Shown here piece after piece: positions 39,760-48,617 of a DNA stretch of 64,000 bases. Under the pieces are notes generated by a model. It worked only from the letters and a program-made list of their open reading frames with translations. It ran no database searches and was not told the DNA's origin. The stretch comes from Cetobacterium sp. 2A. Lineage in GTDB: Bacteria > Fusobacteriota > Fusobacteriia > Fusobacteriales > Fusobacteriaceae. Numbering within the stretch: the stretch's first letter is position 1; each line of letters starts with the position of its first letter. The position numbers and the translations under genes are program-made. The stretch covers positions 1 to 64,000 of the forward strand of contig NZ_JACFAJ010000014.1 in assembly GCF_014250685.1 (NCBI RefSeq). The letters are read 5' to 3'.

Positions 39760-40773
39760 ATGTCATATAAAACTTTAAGTGAGATATCAAAACATTTATT
39801 ATTATCTCCTTCAACAATTTCAAGAGTTATAAATGGGAAAACTAATGTTTCAACTAAAACTAGAGAAAGGGTAGAGAGAGCACTAGAAGAGTATGACTAT
39901 GTTCCGAATGTAATTGCAAGAAGTTTAAAAACTTCAACAAAATTTATTGGAGTAATATTTCCAGATATTAGAAATCCATATTTTACAGAAGTTATATTAG
40001 GTATAGAGAGCATTTTAAAAGAGAAAGGATATACAATTCTATATTTAAACACAAATAATAGAAAAGAAGAAGAGGAGAAAAGAATCCTAGAACTTCTTTC
40101 TGTAAGAGCTGAAGGGATAATTCTTCTTAGTAACTTTTGTAATGAAGAGAGTAAAGCTATTCAAATAGCAAAGAGAAATACTTACCTTGCTTCTGTAGAA
40201 AACTATATAGAAGGAATTGATAATATAACCGTTGATAATATAAAAGGAACTCAAACAGCTTTAAATTATCTATATGAAAAAGGACACACAAAGATTGGGT
40301 ACTGCGGAAATGATTTGAGTTATAGTTCTTGGCAGTTAAGATACCAAACTTATGAGACATTTATGAAAGAAAAAAATATTTATTCCAATGGTCAACACAT
40401 TTATATTGGTCAAGATTTTACAGATTTATTGGATATTAATAATTTGCCAACTGCAATTTTTACAAACAACGATATGAACGCTTTAAAAATATATAAATGG
40501 TGCCAAAATAATGGAGTTAAAATACCAGAACAACTTTCAGTAATAGGGTTTGATGATATATCTTTTGCAAAAATATTATCACCAAAACTGACAACGATTG
40601 CACAACCTGCATATGAAATTGGGCAAATAGTTTCAAGAAATATGTTTGAAAGAATAGAAAATAAAACAAAAAAAGGAACAAAAAAGATATTTATAAATCC
40701 AATTATAAAAAAAAGAGAATCTGTTTTAGATTTAAAAAATAATATTCAAGGAGAGCTAATAAATAATGAATAA
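39760..40773 (+). CDS. LacI-family transcriptional regulator
   Basis: A 337-residue regulator. An N-terminal LacI helix-turn-helix (residues 5-25, with LSPSTISRVINGK) and hinge (ARSLKTS) are followed by a periplasmic-binding-protein-like sensor domain starting IGVIFPDIRNPYF and ending in IGFDDISFAKILSPKLTTI. It is the first gene of the operon and overlaps the ABC ATPase by 8 bases, so it probably controls its own transcript in response to the imported sugar. GGGGGG precedes the ATG. The effector is unknown. Confidence 0.9.
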   Translation: MSYKTLSEISKHLLLSPSTISRVINGKTNVSTKTRERVERALEEYDYVPNVIARSLKTSTKFIGVIFPDIRNPYFTEVILGIESILKEKGYTILYLNTNNRKEEEEKRILELLSVRAEGIILLSNFCNEESKAIQIAKRNTYLASVENYIEGIDNITVDNIKGTQTALNYLYEKGHTKIGYCGNDLSYSSWQLRYQTYETFMKEKNIYSNGQHIYIGQDFTDLLDINNLPTAIFTNNDMNALKIYKWCQNNGVKIPEQLSVIGFDDISFAKILSPKLTTIAQPAYEIGQIVSRNMFERIENKTKKGTKKIFINPIIKKRESVLDLKNNIQGELINNE

Positions 40774-42256
40774 CACTTTTTTGGAAATAAAAAATATTTC
40801 AAAAACATTTCCTGGAGTTAAAGCTTTATCAGATGTAAATTTTTCAATAAAAAAAGGAGAAGTTCATGCTCTAATTGGTGAAAATGGAGCAGGGAAAAGT
40901 ACTCTTATAAAAATTTTAACAGGGGTTTATCAGGCCGATGACGGGGGCGAAATTTTCATAAATGGAAAGAAAGTAACTCTAAAAAATTCTTTAGAGTCTC
41001 TTGAAAAAGGGATAGCTGTAATCTATCAAGATTTTTCTTTATTTTTAAATTTAAGTGTTGCTGAAAATATAGGGATGGGATTAGAGGTTGAAAAGAAAAA
41101 AAAGTTTTTTGATTGGAAAAATGTCAGATCAAAGGCTAAGGAAGCTTTAGATTTAATAGACTTAGATATAGATTTAGATACTCCTGTTGGTGAGTTATCA
41201 ATTGCAAAACAACAAATGATAGCGATTGCACGTTCTTTGGTGTGCGATGCCAGCTTGATTATAATGGATGAGCCTACGGCAACTCTATCAAAAGAAGAAA
41301 CTAAAATATTATTAAGTTTAATAAAGAAAATTCAGAAGACTGGGGTAAGCATATTATTCGTAAGTCATAAATTAGAAGAGCTATTTGAAGTTGCGGATGT
41401 ATTTACAGTTTTAAGGGATGGAAATTATATAGGAACTTATCCAGCAAATCAAATAGATGAAAAAAAATTAATAACTTTAATGGTTGGACGTCAAATCTTT
41501 TTTGAAAGAAAAACAAGAAAAATAGGAGATTCAACACTTTTAGAAGTAAAGAATCTTTCTAAAAGAGGAAATTTTAAAGATATAAGTTTTTCTTTGAAAA
41601 AAGGAGAGATCCTTGGAATAACTGGAATAGTTGGAGCGGGTAGAACAGAAATGATGGAAGCCATTTACGGTGCAACATCTTATGATTCTGGAGAAATATT
41701 TATTGAAGATAAAAAAATAGTTATAAAAAACACTAAAGATGCACTAAAAAATAAAATTGCATTTGTACCAGAAGATAGAAAAAACTTAGGATTAGTTCTT
41801 AATAAAACGATAGAAGACAATATAGTTATTTCAAATCTAAAAAAAATATCTTCAAAATTTGGAAAATTAAATTTTGACTTAAAATTTAAAGAAGCAGAGA
41901 GCTGGATAGAAAAATTGGATATTAGACCAAAAGATTGTCAACTTCAAACTAAAAAGTTATCAGGAGGAAATCAACAAAAAGTCGTAATTGGAAAATGTCT
42001 TTCAACTAACCCTAAAATTCTAATAATAGATGAACCTACAAATGGTATTGATATCGGAGCTAAGACCAATATTCATGATTTATTAAGAGAATTAGCAGAT
42101 GATGGAATGGGAATAATAATGATTTCTTCAGATTTACCAGAAGTTTTAGCTGTAAGTGACCGAATCTTAGTTATGAGAAAAGGTAAAATAACTGGTGAGT
42201 TTTTAGGAGAAGAGGCAACTCAAGAGTCAATAATTAATAAAGCTATTTTAAATTAA
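40766..42256 (+). CDS. Sugar ABC transporter, double ATP-binding protein (RbsA/LsrA/AraG type)
   Basis: A 496-residue CUT2 ATPase with two ABC modules: the first with GENGAGKST near residue 35, signature LSIAKQQMIAIARSL and IIMDEPTATLS; the second with a degenerate P-loop GIVGAGRTE near residue 290, signature LSGGNQQKVVIGKCL and LIIDEPTNGID. It is a homologue of the ATPase at 18700 but clearly diverged. The start lies inside the end of the regulator gene. It energises the two permeases that follow. Confidence 0.9.
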   Translation: MNNTFLEIKNISKTFPGVKALSDVNFSIKKGEVHALIGENGAGKSTLIKILTGVYQADDGGEIFINGKKVTLKNSLESLEKGIAVIYQDFSLFLNLSVAENIGMGLEVEKKKKFFDWKNVRSKAKEALDLIDLDIDLDTPVGELSIAKQQMIAIARSLVCDASLIIMDEPTATLSKEETKILLSLIKKIQKTGVSILFVSHKLEELFEVADVFTVLRDGNYIGTYPANQIDEKKLITLMVGRQIFFERKTRKIGDSTLLEVKNLSKRGNFKDISFSLKKGEILGITGIVGAGRTEMMEAIYGATSYDSGEIFIEDKKIVIKNTKDALKNKIAFVPEDRKNLGLVLNKTIEDNIVISNLKKISSKFGKLNFDLKFKEAESWIEKLDIRPKDCQLQTKKLSGGNQQKVVIGKCLSTNPKILIIDEPTNGIDIGAKTNIHDLLRELADDGMGIIMISSDLPEVLAVSDRILVMRKGKITGEFLGEEATQESIINKAILN

Positions 42257-42278
42257 AATTAAATATTGGAGGATACGA

Positions 42279-43247
42279 ATGAAGAAGATTTTAAAGTCTA
42301 AAGAAGGGATAATACTGCTACTTATTATATTTATATCAGCTATTATAACTTTAAAAAATCCAGACTTTTTGACAACCGAGAATCTTTTAACACTTTTTAA
42401 AATAAATTCAGTTGTTGCAACAATGGCTATAGGGATGACTTTGGCAATCTTAACTGGTGGAATCGATGTATCAGTTGGTGGGAATATAGCGGTGAGTGCA
42501 ATGATAGTTGGATATTTATCAAAGATGGCTCCTAACCTTAATATATTTTTCTTGATTTTGATTGGATTTGCAATAGGAGCTTCTATTGGAAGTATAAATG
42601 GAATGTTGATATCATTTTTTAACTTTCCACCGATTGTAGTGACACTGGGAGTTTTGAGTATATTAAATGGACTTTTAATGTATTTTTCTAAAGGGAATTG
42701 GGTAAATAATCTTCCTGTTCATTATATGGAGTTTGGAAATATTAAAATTTTAGGATTACCAATACAAATATTATTGTTTCTATTTGTTGCAATTGTAATT
42801 CATATATTTTTAAAATATACAATAATTGGTAGAGGAATTTATGCTCTTGGTGGAGATGAAAATTCAGCTCAAAGAATTGGATTTAACACGAAAAAAATAA
42901 AATTTATTGTTTACATGTTATTAGGTGGAATAGTTGGAATATCATCTGTAATTCATACATCGATAGTAAAACAAGTTGATCCAACGGCCTACTCAGGAAT
43001 AGAGCTTATAGTAATTGCTGCAGTTGTATTAGGTGGAGTTAATATAAATGGTGGATATGGAACAGTGCTTGGAACAACTCTTGGGATTATACTTTTGTCT
43101 ATAATAAACAATGGAATGATAATAATGCATATTCCAGTCTTTTGGCAAAAAATTGCAACAGCATTAATTATACTATTTGCCGTAAGTATAGATATAATTC
43201 AAAGAAAAATAAAAGAAAAAAATACTTATAAAGTTGATATAGTTTAA
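42279..43247 (+). CDS. Sugar ABC transporter permease 1 (RbsC/LsrC type)
   Basis: A 322-residue inner-membrane permease with about 8-10 hydrophobic segments and CUT2 signatures: GMTLAILTGGIDVSVGGNIA near residue 53 and AAVVLGGVNINGGYGTV near residue 250. GGAGG precedes the ATG. A second permease gene follows after 23 bases, so this system probably uses a heterodimeric channel, as in the Lsr and rhamnose transporters. Confidence 0.9.
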   Translation: MKKILKSKEGIILLLIIFISAIITLKNPDFLTTENLLTLFKINSVVATMAIGMTLAILTGGIDVSVGGNIAVSAMIVGYLSKMAPNLNIFFLILIGFAIGASIGSINGMLISFFNFPPIVVTLGVLSILNGLLMYFSKGNWVNNLPVHYMEFGNIKILGLPIQILLFLFVAIVIHIFLKYTIIGRGIYALGGDENSAQRIGFNTKKIKFIVYMLLGGIVGISSVIHTSIVKQVDPTAYSGIELIVIAAVVLGGVNINGGYGTVLGTTLGIILLSIINNGMIIMHIPVFWQKIATALIILFAVSIDIIQRKIKEKNTYKVDIV

Positions 43248-43270
43248 TTTAAAGAGAGGATAAAATATAA

Positions 43271-45262
43271 ATGAAAAAATTAAAAGAAATTGCATTGTCT
43301 AAAGAGGGACTTCTATTTATAGTATTTATTTTGATGTTCACAATATTTTCTATAATATCTCCAAATAAATTTTTTACATATTTAAATTTAGAGTCTATGG
43401 CTTTCCAACTTCCAGAATTAGGAATTTTATCAATAGCTATGATGGTGGTTATACTGACTGGTGGAATAAATTTATCTGTTACATCAGCATGTGCACTATC
43501 TGGGATAGTTGGTGGATATTTTTTAGGAAATTTAAATTATTCCCCTGAATTAACAATCACTTTATCGATATTGATGGCATTACTAACAGGAGGAATATGT
43601 GGATACATAAATGGATTCTTTGTTTCTAAAATTGGGGTGACTCCTATGTTAGCTACATTAGGGACTATGACTTTATTCGAAGGTGTTGGTTTAAATTTTA
43701 CAAAAGGTGGAGCACTAGGAAATTTTCCGTTAGAGTATATGGCATTAGGAAATGATGTATTTTTAAAAATTCCTATTCCCTTCATTATTTTTATACTAGT
43801 AGCTATCATTAGTACTTACTTTTTAGAAAAAACAAAATTTGGACTTGAAGTTTATATGACTGGAGACAATCAAAAAGCAACATATTATTCAGGAGTTAAT
43901 ACTAAAGCTATATTAAATTATATTTATATATTTTCTGGGATTCTATCAGCAATAGCTAGCATAATAATGATTTCAAGATATAATTCAGCAAAAGTAGATT
44001 ATGGGGCATCTTACTTATTACTAACTATAACTGCCGCTGTTTTAGGAGGAACTAATATTACTGGTGGATATGGAAAAGTATTTGGTACAGTTACAGCAAC
44101 AATGATTCTACAAATTTTAACTAGTGGCTTAACAATAATTGGCATTGATAGATTTTTAGTAGATTTCATACTAGGAATGGTGTTATTGTCAACAATATTA
44201 ATTCAATATTTTATTTCTAATAGACAAGAAACTGATAAAACAAAAATAACTAAAAAGTCAACGGAGGGAAAAGTTATGAAAAAAAGTATTATTACAATGG
44301 TAATTGGAGCATTCTTATTTGGGGGGTTATCTAAAGGAGTAATAGCGGCAGAAAAGAAAATAAGAATTGTTGTAATGCCTAAATTAATGGGAATTCCATA
44401 TTTTAACGCTGCACAAAAAGGCGCAGAAATGGCAGGGAAGGATTTAGGAATTGAAGTTTCATATGTTGGACCAACAACTGCTGATGCAGCTCTTCAAGTA
44501 AAAATGTTAGAAGATATATTAGTTCAAGGAGTAGATGCAATAGCTGTGGCACCAAATGATCCATCTGCATTAACTCCAGTATTAATGAAAGCTAAAAAGA
44601 TGGGTGTAAAGGTCCTAGATTGGGATACAGCAGCAGATCCAAGAATTGTAGATGCTTCGATTAAACAAATAGATGATAAAGAGTATGCAATTGCACTATG
44701 GGATTCTCTAGTTAAAGTTATGGGAAAAGAAGATGGAAATTATGCAATTGTAACAGGAGGACTATCTGCAGCTAATTTAAATACTTGGATTGATTTAGGA
44801 TTAGAATACTCTAAAAAAAGATATCCTAATTTAAAATTAGTAACTGATAAAGTTCCAAGTGATGAGATGCAACAATTGGCTTACCAAAAGTCTTTAGAGC
44901 TAATGACAGCATATCCTAATTTAGATGGAATAATAGGAGTAGGAACAATCTCGCCTATTGGAGCAGCACAAGCAGTAAAAGAAAAAGGAATGCAAGATAA
45001 AGTTGCTGTAGTTGGAGTAGCACTTCCGATGGACTCAAAACCATACTTAAATGATGGAGCTTTAAAAGAAGCAATTTTATGGGATCCTGTAAAACTTGGA
45101 TATTTAACTGTATTTGCAGCAAATGAATTAGTAAATGGAAGAAAATTAACTAATGATCAAGATATCCCTAAAGTTGGAAAAATAAAAAGTGAAGGAAAAA
45201 ATGTAATAATGGGAAAACCAACAACTTTTACAAAGGAAAATGTTGAAAACTATGATTTCTAA
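43271..45262 (+). CDS. Sugar ABC permease 2 running in frame into its substrate-binding protein
   Basis: A 663-codon open frame that joins two normally separate proteins. Residues 1-335 are a complete CUT2 permease (MMVVILTGGINLSVTSACAL near residue 57, TAAVLGGTNITGGYG near residue 257). A hydrophilic linker with KTKITKKSTEGKV then runs without a stop into Met336, the start of a signal peptide and a full LsrB/RhaS-like sugar-binding protein. As a fusion, the signal peptide would act as an extra membrane segment after the cytoplasmic permease end and place the binding domain in the periplasm. The internal start is intact, so separate synthesis of the binding protein is also possible. Confidence 0.88.
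   Translation: MKKLKEIALSKEGLLFIVFILMFTIFSIISPNKFFTYLNLESMAFQLPELGILSIAMMVVILTGGINLSVTSACALSGIVGGYFLGNLNYSPELTITLSILMALLTGGICGYINGFFVSKIGVTPMLATLGTMTLFEGVGLNFTKGGALGNFPLEYMALGNDVFLKIPIPFIIFILVAIISTYFLEKTKFGLEVYMTGDNQKATYYSGVNTKAILNYIYIFSGILSAIASIIMISRYNSAKVDYGASYLLLTITAAVLGGTNITGGYGKVFGTVTATMILQILTSGLTIIGIDRFLVDFILGMVLLSTILIQYFISNRQETDKTKITKKSTEGKVMKKSIITMVIGAFLFGGLSKGVIAAEKKIRIVVMPKLMGIPYFNAAQKGAEMAGKDLGIEVSYVGPTTADAALQVKMLEDILVQGVDAIAVAPNDPSALTPVLMKAKKMGVKVLDWDTAADPRIVDASIKQIDDKEYAIALWDSLVKVMGKEDGNYAIVTGGLSAANLNTWIDLGLEYSKKRYPNLKLVTDKVPSDEMQQLAYQKSLELMTAYPNLDGIIGVGTISPIGAAQAVKEKGMQDKVAVVGVALPMDSKPYLNDGALKEAILWDPVKLGYLTVFAANELVNGRKLTNDQDIPKVGKIKSEGKNVIMGKPTTFTKENVENYDF
44276..45262 (+). CDS. 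Substrate-binding protein readable from an internal start (LsrB/RhaS-like)
   Basis: From the internal ATG at 44276, preceded by GGAGGG at 44263-44268 with ideal spacing, a 328-residue exported binding protein would be made. Its signal peptide ends VIAA (about residue 25). The mature part starts KKIRIVVMPKLMGIPYF and contains LDWDTAADPR and KAILWDP-like signatures of the LsrB/RhaS group. Compared with LsrB as I recall it, the Lys and one Asp ligand of AI-2 remain, but the Asp-Gln pair and the Pro/Ala ligands are changed, so AI-2 is an unlikely ligand. The neighbouring araB and araD suggest a pentose. Confidence 0.72.
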   Translation: MKKSIITMVIGAFLFGGLSKGVIAAEKKIRIVVMPKLMGIPYFNAAQKGAEMAGKDLGIEVSYVGPTTADAALQVKMLEDILVQGVDAIAVAPNDPSALTPVLMKAKKMGVKVLDWDTAADPRIVDASIKQIDDKEYAIALWDSLVKVMGKEDGNYAIVTGGLSAANLNTWIDLGLEYSKKRYPNLKLVTDKVPSDEMQQLAYQKSLELMTAYPNLDGIIGVGTISPIGAAQAVKEKGMQDKVAVVGVALPMDSKPYLNDGALKEAILWDPVKLGYLTVFAANELVNGRKLTNDQDIPKVGKIKSEGKNVIMGKPTTFTKENVENYDF

Positions 45263-46214
45263 TAAAATTAAATTACAAAATTTTCAATTGGAAAATGAAA
45301 TTTTAAAAAATAAATTTATGGAATTAAAAGGCAAAATAAATTCAAAAGAGTCTTTGAAACTATCTTGGAGTAATTGGGGATTTGGAATTGAAAACCTTGA
45401 AGATTCAATCAAAAGATTAAAAAATAATAATTTAGATTATATAGAATTACATGGAAATAAATATAGTCCAGATTTAGGATACTCTTCTATAGAGGTAAAC
45501 AAACTTTTAAAAAATTATGATATGAAAGTAAGTGGTGTATGTGGAATGTTCTCGAAAGAAAATGATCTTTCGAGTAACAATCCTATTCATCGTCAAAGAG
45601 CGATAGATTATATAAAAAGACAAGTTGAATTTACCGCAGAAGTTGGTGGAGAGTATCTTTTAGTTGTTCCTGCCGCTGTAGGAAGACCTGTAGCATATGA
45701 TGATTGCGAAATTGAAAGAAGTATTGATAGTTTAAGCAGAGTGGCAGATATATTTGTAGAGTATAAGATAAAGGGAGCTGTTGAACCAATAAGAGCGGCT
45801 GAAACATCAATTATACACACAGTGGCTGAAGCTAGAGAATATATAGAAAGATTAAATCATCCAGGAATCCAACATATAAATGGAGATATCTATCATATGC
45901 AAAGTGGTGAAACTCATATTGGAAAAGCTATACTGAGTTCTGGCAAAAGTTTAGTAAATCTTCATATGGCAGATAGTAATAGATGTGCTCTTGGGGAAGG
46001 GTCAATGGATTTAGATTCGATAATAATGGCTCTTTATATTTTAGGATATAATGAAGGGAATAAGTATGTAACTCCTGAGCCATTAGGTCCCGGGGCTGAT
46101 CCTTATCCTGCAATGAATGGAAAAAATAATCCAAAAGATTTGGATTTACTTGTAAAAAGTAGTATTGATTATTTTAGATTTAGAGAAAAAGAGGTTTTAA
46201 GCCTATTAAAATGA
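45240..46214 (+). CDS. Ketose 3-epimerase-like TIM-barrel sugar isomerase
   Basis: A 324-residue protein of the AP-endonuclease-2 / D-tagatose 3-epimerase superfamily. The four metal-binding residues expected for these epimerases are seen: Glu182 (GAVEPIR), Asp216 (HINGDIYH), His242 (LHMADS) and Glu280 (TPEPLG). It probably epimerises a free ketopentose or ketohexose at C3, for example L-xylulose to L-ribulose, feeding the ribulokinase next door; that is inference. About 40 residues precede the usual start of the fold. It begins inside the binding-protein gene; the ATG at 45240 is close to AAAGG, and TTG 45243 or ATG 45252 are alternatives. Confidence 0.78.
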   Translation: MLKTMISNKIKLQNFQLENEILKNKFMELKGKINSKESLKLSWSNWGFGIENLEDSIKRLKNNNLDYIELHGNKYSPDLGYSSIEVNKLLKNYDMKVSGVCGMFSKENDLSSNNPIHRQRAIDYIKRQVEFTAEVGGEYLLVVPAAVGRPVAYDDCEIERSIDSLSRVADIFVEYKIKGAVEPIRAAETSIIHTVAEAREYIERLNHPGIQHINGDIYHMQSGETHIGKAILSSGKSLVNLHMADSNRCALGEGSMDLDSIIMALYILGYNEGNKYVTPEPLGPGADPYPAMNGKNNPKDLDLLVKSSIDYFRFREKEVLSLLK

Positions 46215-46230
46215 GATGGAGTGGGGAAAA

Positions 46231-47904
46231 TTGGATAAAGAAAATTATGTAATAGGTGTGGATTATGGAAGTGATTCTTGTAGAGCAGTATTAATTAATG
46301 CAAGTAATGGAAATGAAGTTGCAAACTCAATTTTCGAATATCCTCGTTGGAAAAATAAACTATATTGTGATGCAAAAAAAAATAAATTTAGACAACATCC
46401 CTTAGATTACATTGAAGGATTAAAATTTGTGGTAAGAAATTGTTTAAAGGATATTTCAGAAGATAAAATAGAAAAGATTAAAGGCATTTCAATTGATACA
46501 ACTGGGTCAACTCCGATTGCTGTGAATGAGGCAGGAATACCTCTAGCATTGACAGAAGAATTTAAAGAGAATCCAAATGCAATGTTTATTTTATGGAAAG
46601 ACCATACTTCAATAAAAGAAGCTCAAGAGATAACCAAATTATCAAAAAATTGGGGAGGAAAAGACTTTACAAAATATTCTGGCGGAGTATATTCAGCGGA
46701 ATGGTTTTGGGCAAAAATTTTACATACTATAAGAGAAGATGAAAAGGTAAAAGAAGCTGCTTATTCTTGGGTTGAACACTGTGATTGGATGCCAGCTCTT
46801 TTAACAGGAGTAAATAAGTCGGAGAATATCAAGAGGGGAAGATGTTCTGCAGGACATAAAGCTATGTGGAATGAAGAATTTGATGGATTACCATCTGAAG
46901 AATTTTTAAATCAACTGGATCCGTATTTGGGAGCATTAAGATCTAGATTATACACTGAAACATTTACTTCTGATAAATCAGCGGGAAATTTATCAGAATA
47001 CTGGGCAAAAGAACTAGGATTATCTACAGATATAACTGTTAGTATTGGAGCCTTTGACGCCCATATGGGAGCTGTTGGAGGTCAGATTAAACCTTATTCT
47101 TTTGTTAAAGTTATGGGGACATCAACATGTGATATTTTAATGGTTCCAGAAACGGATATTATGGATAGAGTAGTTGATGGGATATGTGGCCAAGTAAATG
47201 GATCAGTTATAGATGGAATGATAGGAATGGAAGCTGGACAATCTGGATTTGGAGATATATATGCATGGTTTAAAGATATTATCTCTTGGCCATTAAATCT
47301 ACTAAATGAAGTAGACGGTATAGATATTGAAATAAAAAATAAAATAAAAAATCAAATTCTTTTTGAACTTGAAAAAGAAGCACAAAAGTTAAAACCTGGG
47401 AGTAATGAACTGATTTCATTGGATTGGATGAATGGAAGAAGAACTCCTTTTGCAAACCAAGAGTTAAAAGGAGCTATAACTGGAATAAATCTTGGAGATA
47501 CAGCACCTAGTCTATATAGATCTTTAGTTGAATCAACAGCTTTTGGAGCTAAGGCAATAGTTGACCAATTCAAAGTGAAGGGAATTAGAATAGACGAAAT
47601 AATAGCTATAGGTGGAGTTGCAAAAAAATCTCCTTTAATAATGCAAATTTTAGCAGATACATTAGATATGCCAATAAAAGTTTCTGAATCGAGTCAGACA
47701 GTTGCACTAGGAGCGGCAATATTTGCATCTGTTAGTTCTGGAATATATAAGGATGTTCAAACGGCTCAAAAGATAATTGGTAGTAAGTTTGAGAAAGAAT
47801 ATCTGCCTATAGAAGAAAATGTTCTAATTTATAAATCTCTTTATGAAAAATATTCTGAACTTGGAAATTTTATAGAAAATAAATCTCTTAGAAAGAGAGG
47901 GTGA
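46231..47904 (+). CDS. araB: Ribulokinase
   Basis: A 557-residue FGGY kinase of the AraB type. The phosphate loop is DYGSDSCRA near residues 9-17; FEYPRW near residue 35, [14 protein letters not shown] near residue 183, the catalytic Asp in [13 protein letters not shown] near residue 275 and [18 protein letters not shown] near residue 460 are all AraB-like. It phosphorylates L-ribulose to L-ribulose-5-phosphate. I prefer the TTG at 46231, nine bases after GGAG; the ATG at 46216 has no site. It precedes araD with a 4-base-scale overlap of signals. Confidence 0.9.
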
Positions 47905-47906
47905 TG

Positions 47907-48617
47907 ATGTTAGAGGAATTAAAAAAGGAAGTTTTAGAAGCTAATTTAGAATTGAATAATAGAAAATTAGTAACATATACTTGGGGAAATGTTAGTGGAA
48001 TAGATAGAGAGCTTGGATTAGTGGTAATTAAAGCAAGTGGAATTAGATACGAAGATATGACACTAGAACATATGGTTGTTGTTGATTTAGATGGAAATAT
48101 TTTAGAAGGAAAATATAATCCATCTTCAGATACACCAACTCATCTTGAGATATATAAAAAATATTTAAATTTAGGTGGAATAGTACATACACATTCTACG
48201 TATGCTACGGGATGGGCACAGGCATGTAGAGATATTCCTGTATTTGGAACAACTCATGCAGATTATTTTTATGGTTCTGTTCCTTGTACAAGAGTTTTAT
48301 CAGAAGATGAAATAGAGGGAAATTATGAGAAAGAAACTGGAAAAGTTATAATTGAGACATTAATAACTAGAGAAATAAATCCATTAGAGGTTCCAGGGAT
48401 TACTGTAGCCAGTCATGGTCCATTTACCTGGGGAGAGAGTCCTAAAAAAGCTGTACACAATGCTGTTGTACTAGAAGAAATTGCTAAAATGGCATATTTA
48501 ACAAATTCAATTAATCCAAATATAAGACAAGTTTCTAAAGCTTTAGAAAATAAACATTATTCTAGAAAACATGGTAAAGACTCATATTATGGTCAAAAAA
48601 ATGAGGTAGAGAGCTGA
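47907..48617 (+). CDS. araD: L-ribulose-5-phosphate 4-epimerase
   Basis: A 236-residue class II aldolase-family epimerase that converts L-ribulose-5-phosphate to D-xylulose-5-phosphate. Zinc-ligand motifs [13 protein letters not shown] (near residue 93) and SHGPFTWG (near residue 168) are present, along with SGIRYEDMT and SSDTPTH. Length is as usual for AraD. GAGGGTGAT precedes three consecutive start codons (GTG 47901, ATG 47904, ATG 47907); I use the last for spacing. Its final codons form half of a hairpin shared with the convergent ppk gene. Confidence 0.95.

Follow-up and report, generated by a model that had tools for sequence, protein, structure and literature searches.

We propose that the 663-codon frame at 43271-45262 of the window (the whole 64,000-nucleotide stretch of Cetobacterium sp. 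2A DNA analysed here) belongs to an ordinary CUT2 sugar-uptake operon whose second permease gene has lost, in this lineage, the stop codon that divided it from the receptor gene; we put the probability of this reading at about two in three. Most likely the join arose by chance and does not represent a new kind of transporter, and it matters little in itself.

Translated with table 11, positions 43271-45262 form one uninterrupted frame of 663 codons, in which residues 1-335 are the permease (Pfam BPD_transp_2, residues 40-306) and residues 336-663 the sugar-binding protein (Peripla_BP_4, residues 366-625), with residue 336 being the methionine encoded by the ATG at 44276. A preliminary description of this DNA was therefore right that no stop separates the two. 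The whole product has a calculated mass of 71.6 kDa, the receptor precursor one of 35.4 kDa and the cut receptor one of about 33 kDa. The same bases are found in contig C14 of genome G000, which is the same assembly and hence no independent confirmation of them. The frame and its surroundings comprise:

39760..40773, + strand: LacI-family regulator of the operon (ORF; Pfam LacI and Peripla_BP_3)
40766..42256, + strand: double-domain sugar ABC ATPase of RbsA/AraG/XylG type (Pfam ABC_tran, two stretches)
42279..43247, + strand: first CUT2 permease (Pfam BPD_transp_2)
43271..44275, + strand: second CUT2 permease, which opens the 663-codon frame and lacks a stop (translation; Pfam; orthologues at 50% and 46% have their own stop)
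44219..44275, + strand: joining stretch, made up of the permease tail (to about 44257) and then the receptor ribosome site (G091 tail alignment; all-frame stop scan)
44263..44268, + strand: Shine-Dalgarno sequence of the receptor gene, GGAGGG, 7 bases ahead of the ATG at 44276
44276..45262, + strand: sugar-binding protein (RhaS/LsrB-like) with signal peptide and its own ATG at 44276 (Pfam Peripla_BP_4)
45240..46214, + strand: TIM-barrel protein resembling ketose 3-epimerases, whose gene starts before the receptor gene ends (Pfam AP_endonuc_2; solved ketose and D-tagatose 3-epimerases)
46216..47904, + strand: L-ribulokinase (NCBIfam L-ribulokinase, over cut-off)
47901..48617, + strand: L-ribulose-5-phosphate 4-epimerase, AraD family (NCBIfam PRK12348 and PRK08193, over cut-off)

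The presence of a BPD_transp_2 permease, a double-domain ATPase and a Peripla_BP_4 receptor in a single operon identifies a CUT2 importer. The ATPase scores under the curated NCBIfam cut-offs of XylG, AraG and RbsA. Genes for a ketose 3-epimerase-like protein, for L-ribulokinase and for AraD are present in the operon (39760-48617), while none for an arabinose isomerase is, suggesting that a ketopentose, for instance L-xylulose or L-ribulose, is imported; we infer that the operon serves to take up and degrade a sugar of the L-ribulose/L-xylulose kind, a pentose or a pentulose. The receptor scores 215 bits against RhaS (NCBIfam TIGR02637), under the cut-off of 342, and is not assigned to that family; RhaS and LsrB are its nearest families, yet it falls under the curated cut-offs of both. 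Its solved relatives are 9i1m, 3d02, LsrB and rhamnose-binding proteins, while a search of solved structures gave no sequence match for the permease half.

Several features mark 44276 as a place where translation begins. The sequence after this ATG, MKKSIITMVIGAFLFGGLSKGVIAAEKK, reads as a normal signal peptide: residues 340-358 form a hydrophobic segment of signal-peptide type, followed by AAEKK, with the cleavage-type end GVIAA-EKK. The pattern GGAGG(N4-9)ATG occurs 22 times in the whole window, 44276 included, and 18 of the 21 other sites start an ORF of more than 140 residues and have little open frame ahead of them (the remaining three lie at 206, 13110 and 33505, the latter two inside longer frames), so that the pattern serves well to indicate genuine gene starts. 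The GGAGG site, together with the signal peptide and the position of the boundary between the two families, makes it very probable that the receptor gene starts at 44276. The RNA around it showed no stable structure, folding no better than shuffled sequence.

Thus the full signal peptide and GGAGGG that had been described at Met 336 are both in place, and so are the signals for two products from one frame, which had been put forward as possible. The suggestion that a fusion would be topologically workable was also sound, as the permease tail is positively charged and the hydrophobic segment follows at 340-358. If the stop was lost as we propose, perhaps recently, the permease tail would read on through the receptor ribosome site into the ATG at 44276 in the same frame. 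The receptor would still come mainly from ribosomes starting at 44276, as it did before the loss; ribosomes arriving from the permease would make the long form, whose signal peptide would cross the membrane from the cytoplasmic side. Signal peptidase I would probably cleave this form into the unchanged receptor and a permease with a slightly longer tail. Since the cut long form would yield the same two proteins, loss of the stop should cost little and be tolerated by the topology. An annotation pipeline will nonetheless report one protein of 663 residues, although the cell probably makes two.

The joining stretch itself is an ordinary permease tail followed by the receptor ribosome site. The permease aligns with its orthologues through the last helix, and its tail DKTKITKKST aligns with the G091 permease tail, DKSLITKRKNKTA-stop; beyond DKTKITKKST there are only ribosome-site bases, and an added linker domain is absent. 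With the local intergenic composition, a frame would stay open by chance over 6 codons in about 54% of cases and over 19 codons in about 14%. Frame +1 has stops at 44247 and 44277, and frame +2 has stops at 44221-44251, so that one base gained or lost could produce or hide the join.

This raises the alternative that a sequencing or assembly error of one base (substituted, inserted or dropped) near 44219-44275 hides the end of the permease gene, and that the two genes are in truth separate. The junction is rich in A and contains short homopolymers, stops lie close by in both other frames, and 12 of the 171 single substitutions across the 19 joining codons create a stop. Furthermore, the frame +1 stop at 44277 would give an ATGA stop/start overlap at the receptor start, and a 4 nt overlap is one of the most frequent spacings between serial genes (PMC10666635). 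Against this, the neighbouring reading frames of the operon are intact (ORF list), and with the nearest orthologue already 50% divergent, a real stop loss would come easily. Assembled contigs, moreover, generally contain few errors. We regard an error as unlikely, though it is the alternative to which we give most weight.

Among the 98 Fusobacteriota genomes searched, only G000, the genome of the window itself, gave a stop-free match through both halves; all other matches spanning both halves hold at least one stop. The absence of the join from every other genome searched is also what an error would predict. The nearest orthologues, in two genomes from another family of the same order, are G090:C21 (permease 50%, receptor 55%) and G091:C10 (permease 46%, receptor 59%). 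In both, permease and receptor are separate genes, one junction having an 8-base overlap (by mechanical start) and the other 95 bases between the genes, and thus the join is not conserved among orthologues. The two orthologue operons hold different enzymes. The only other genome of the same genus that was searched lacks an orthologue; the best match there (34%) belongs to a different operon. Searches of plasmids, viral contigs and genome contigs found no second strain of the species and no second copy of the locus, the genome contigs giving one unrelated weak match.

Paralogous pairs on the same contig show how little separates two genes from one frame. The pairs at C14:71447-73414 and C14:96493-98265 each have a single stop between permease and receptor: the first junction reads TAG GGAGGAAAAGTT ATG, where the window has ACG GAGGGAAAAGTT ATG with a nearly identical ribosome site, and the second has one TAA, then AAGGGGAGGATTTTT ATG. 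Of 34 permease-receptor junctions read, a sample biased to in-frame pairs because the search favours them, 19 were in the same frame and ten of these had a single stop, so that one substitution would fuse any of the ten. In-frame pairs with a single stop are thus common in the phylum and one lost stop suffices for a join; tightly packed permease and receptor genes sit near fusion, one base away in about a third of the junctions sampled. Long frames in G055, G093 and G094 (L018, L039 and L044) were considered as fusions and rejected, as the permease there has its own stop. Each of these loci has a CUT2 permease, one stop and then an in-frame sugar kinase-like gene, and so is also one substitution from a fusion.

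The receptors of both orthologues (L045:7249-8292 and L046:5789-6808) are lipoprotein-like (LLGAFVACGKK and LLISCGEKK), while the signal peptide of the window receptor has no cysteine; the mode of receptor anchoring would thus differ between relatives. From these sequences, the join could conceivably reflect a switch in the way the receptor is anchored, as compared with the lipoprotein-like receptors of the orthologues. A further reading is that the 663-residue fusion works as a tethered receptor, with the signal peptide staying as an uncut helix, as in GlnPQ, OpuA and EgtU. The open frame and workable topology would allow this, such fusions occur in other ABC importers (PMC9732360), apparently one CUT2 fusion exists on a Gemmatirosa plasmid (below), and the lipoprotein-like receptors of the nearest orthologues might mean that a membrane-held receptor is ancestral. 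However, neither of the two paralogous receptors that were read in this genome is a lipoprotein, so that the lipoprotein look of the orthologues gives weak support for tethering. A tethered receptor would have a continuous frame with its permease and no independent start; the frame is continuous through permease and receptor, but GGAGG and ATG are retained at 44263-44278 as a strong internal start. The signal peptide is ordinary, with its cleavage-type end, the linker is too close to a normal permease tail and ribosome site, and the join is found in a single genome. We therefore hold a working tethered receptor to be very improbable, and the proposal that the join is a device for tethering is not supported, the orthologues being separate genes and the paralogues unfused. 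Only a very slim chance, slimmer if anything, attaches to a CUT2 importer with permease-tethered and free receptor from one frame, as a first step from lipoprotein to tethered receptor in a diderm bacterium.

It could also be imagined that fusion and free receptor are made deliberately, in a regulated ratio in which both matter, as all the signals for both are present. The join is not conserved, however, no regulatory feature was seen at it and the RNA at the receptor start folds no better than shuffled sequence, and we think such a dual output scarcely credible. A stop lost between two cistrons thus remains our preferred explanation.

The preliminary description had stated that no tethered receptor was known in the RbsC/LsrC class. 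This stands for the literature searched, from which most subscription papers were out of reach and in which no CUT2-class permease-receptor fusion was found; for sequences it probably needs correcting. A tblastn match on Gemmatirosa kalamazoonensis plasmid 1 (NZ_CP007129.1, L053:1285-3534, about 684073-686322) is a 749-residue ORF in which translation probably begins further in; it contains BPD_transp_2 at 100-365 and Peripla_BP_4 at 453-708. Between these halves lie a transmembrane helix, VAALSAVILAGALIVAGSNWYLV, and a linker rich in Ala and Pro, and no ATG occurs there; a GTG present in this part has no evident ribosome site. From its sequence, this ORF is apparently a true CUT2 permease-receptor fusion with a tether, although the GTG leaves some room for separate genes. 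The NZ_CP007129.1 record bears no annotation at this place. No other plasmid record covers 80% of the Gemmatirosa fusion in one place, and of the five best plasmid matches read, four were separate genes and one was fused.

In GlnPQ, OpuA and OpuF, the receptor is fused to a membrane domain. These importers and EgtU have membrane domain and receptor in one chain, like the frame of the window, but they belong to other transporter classes and their fusion is an established product, whereas that of the window is known from sequence and keeps its receptor start. The paper on EgtU describes receptors of Gram-positive bacteria as lipid-anchored or fused to a membrane domain (PMC9732360). Compared with the CUT2 importers of Fusobacteriota (RbsABC, LsrACDB and Rha-type), the window has the same families in the same order of ATPase, permease(s) and binding protein, with spacing and a ribosome site before the binding protein of the same kind; it differs in lacking the stop that separates their second permease from the binding protein. 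The Gemmatirosa ORF, like the window, has a CUT2 permease and a Peripla_BP_4 receptor in one frame, but it comes from a high-GC, unrelated lineage and has a transmembrane helix, an Ala/Pro-rich linker and no ATG between the two. It is better suited to the question of whether a tethered receptor can work in a CUT2 importer.
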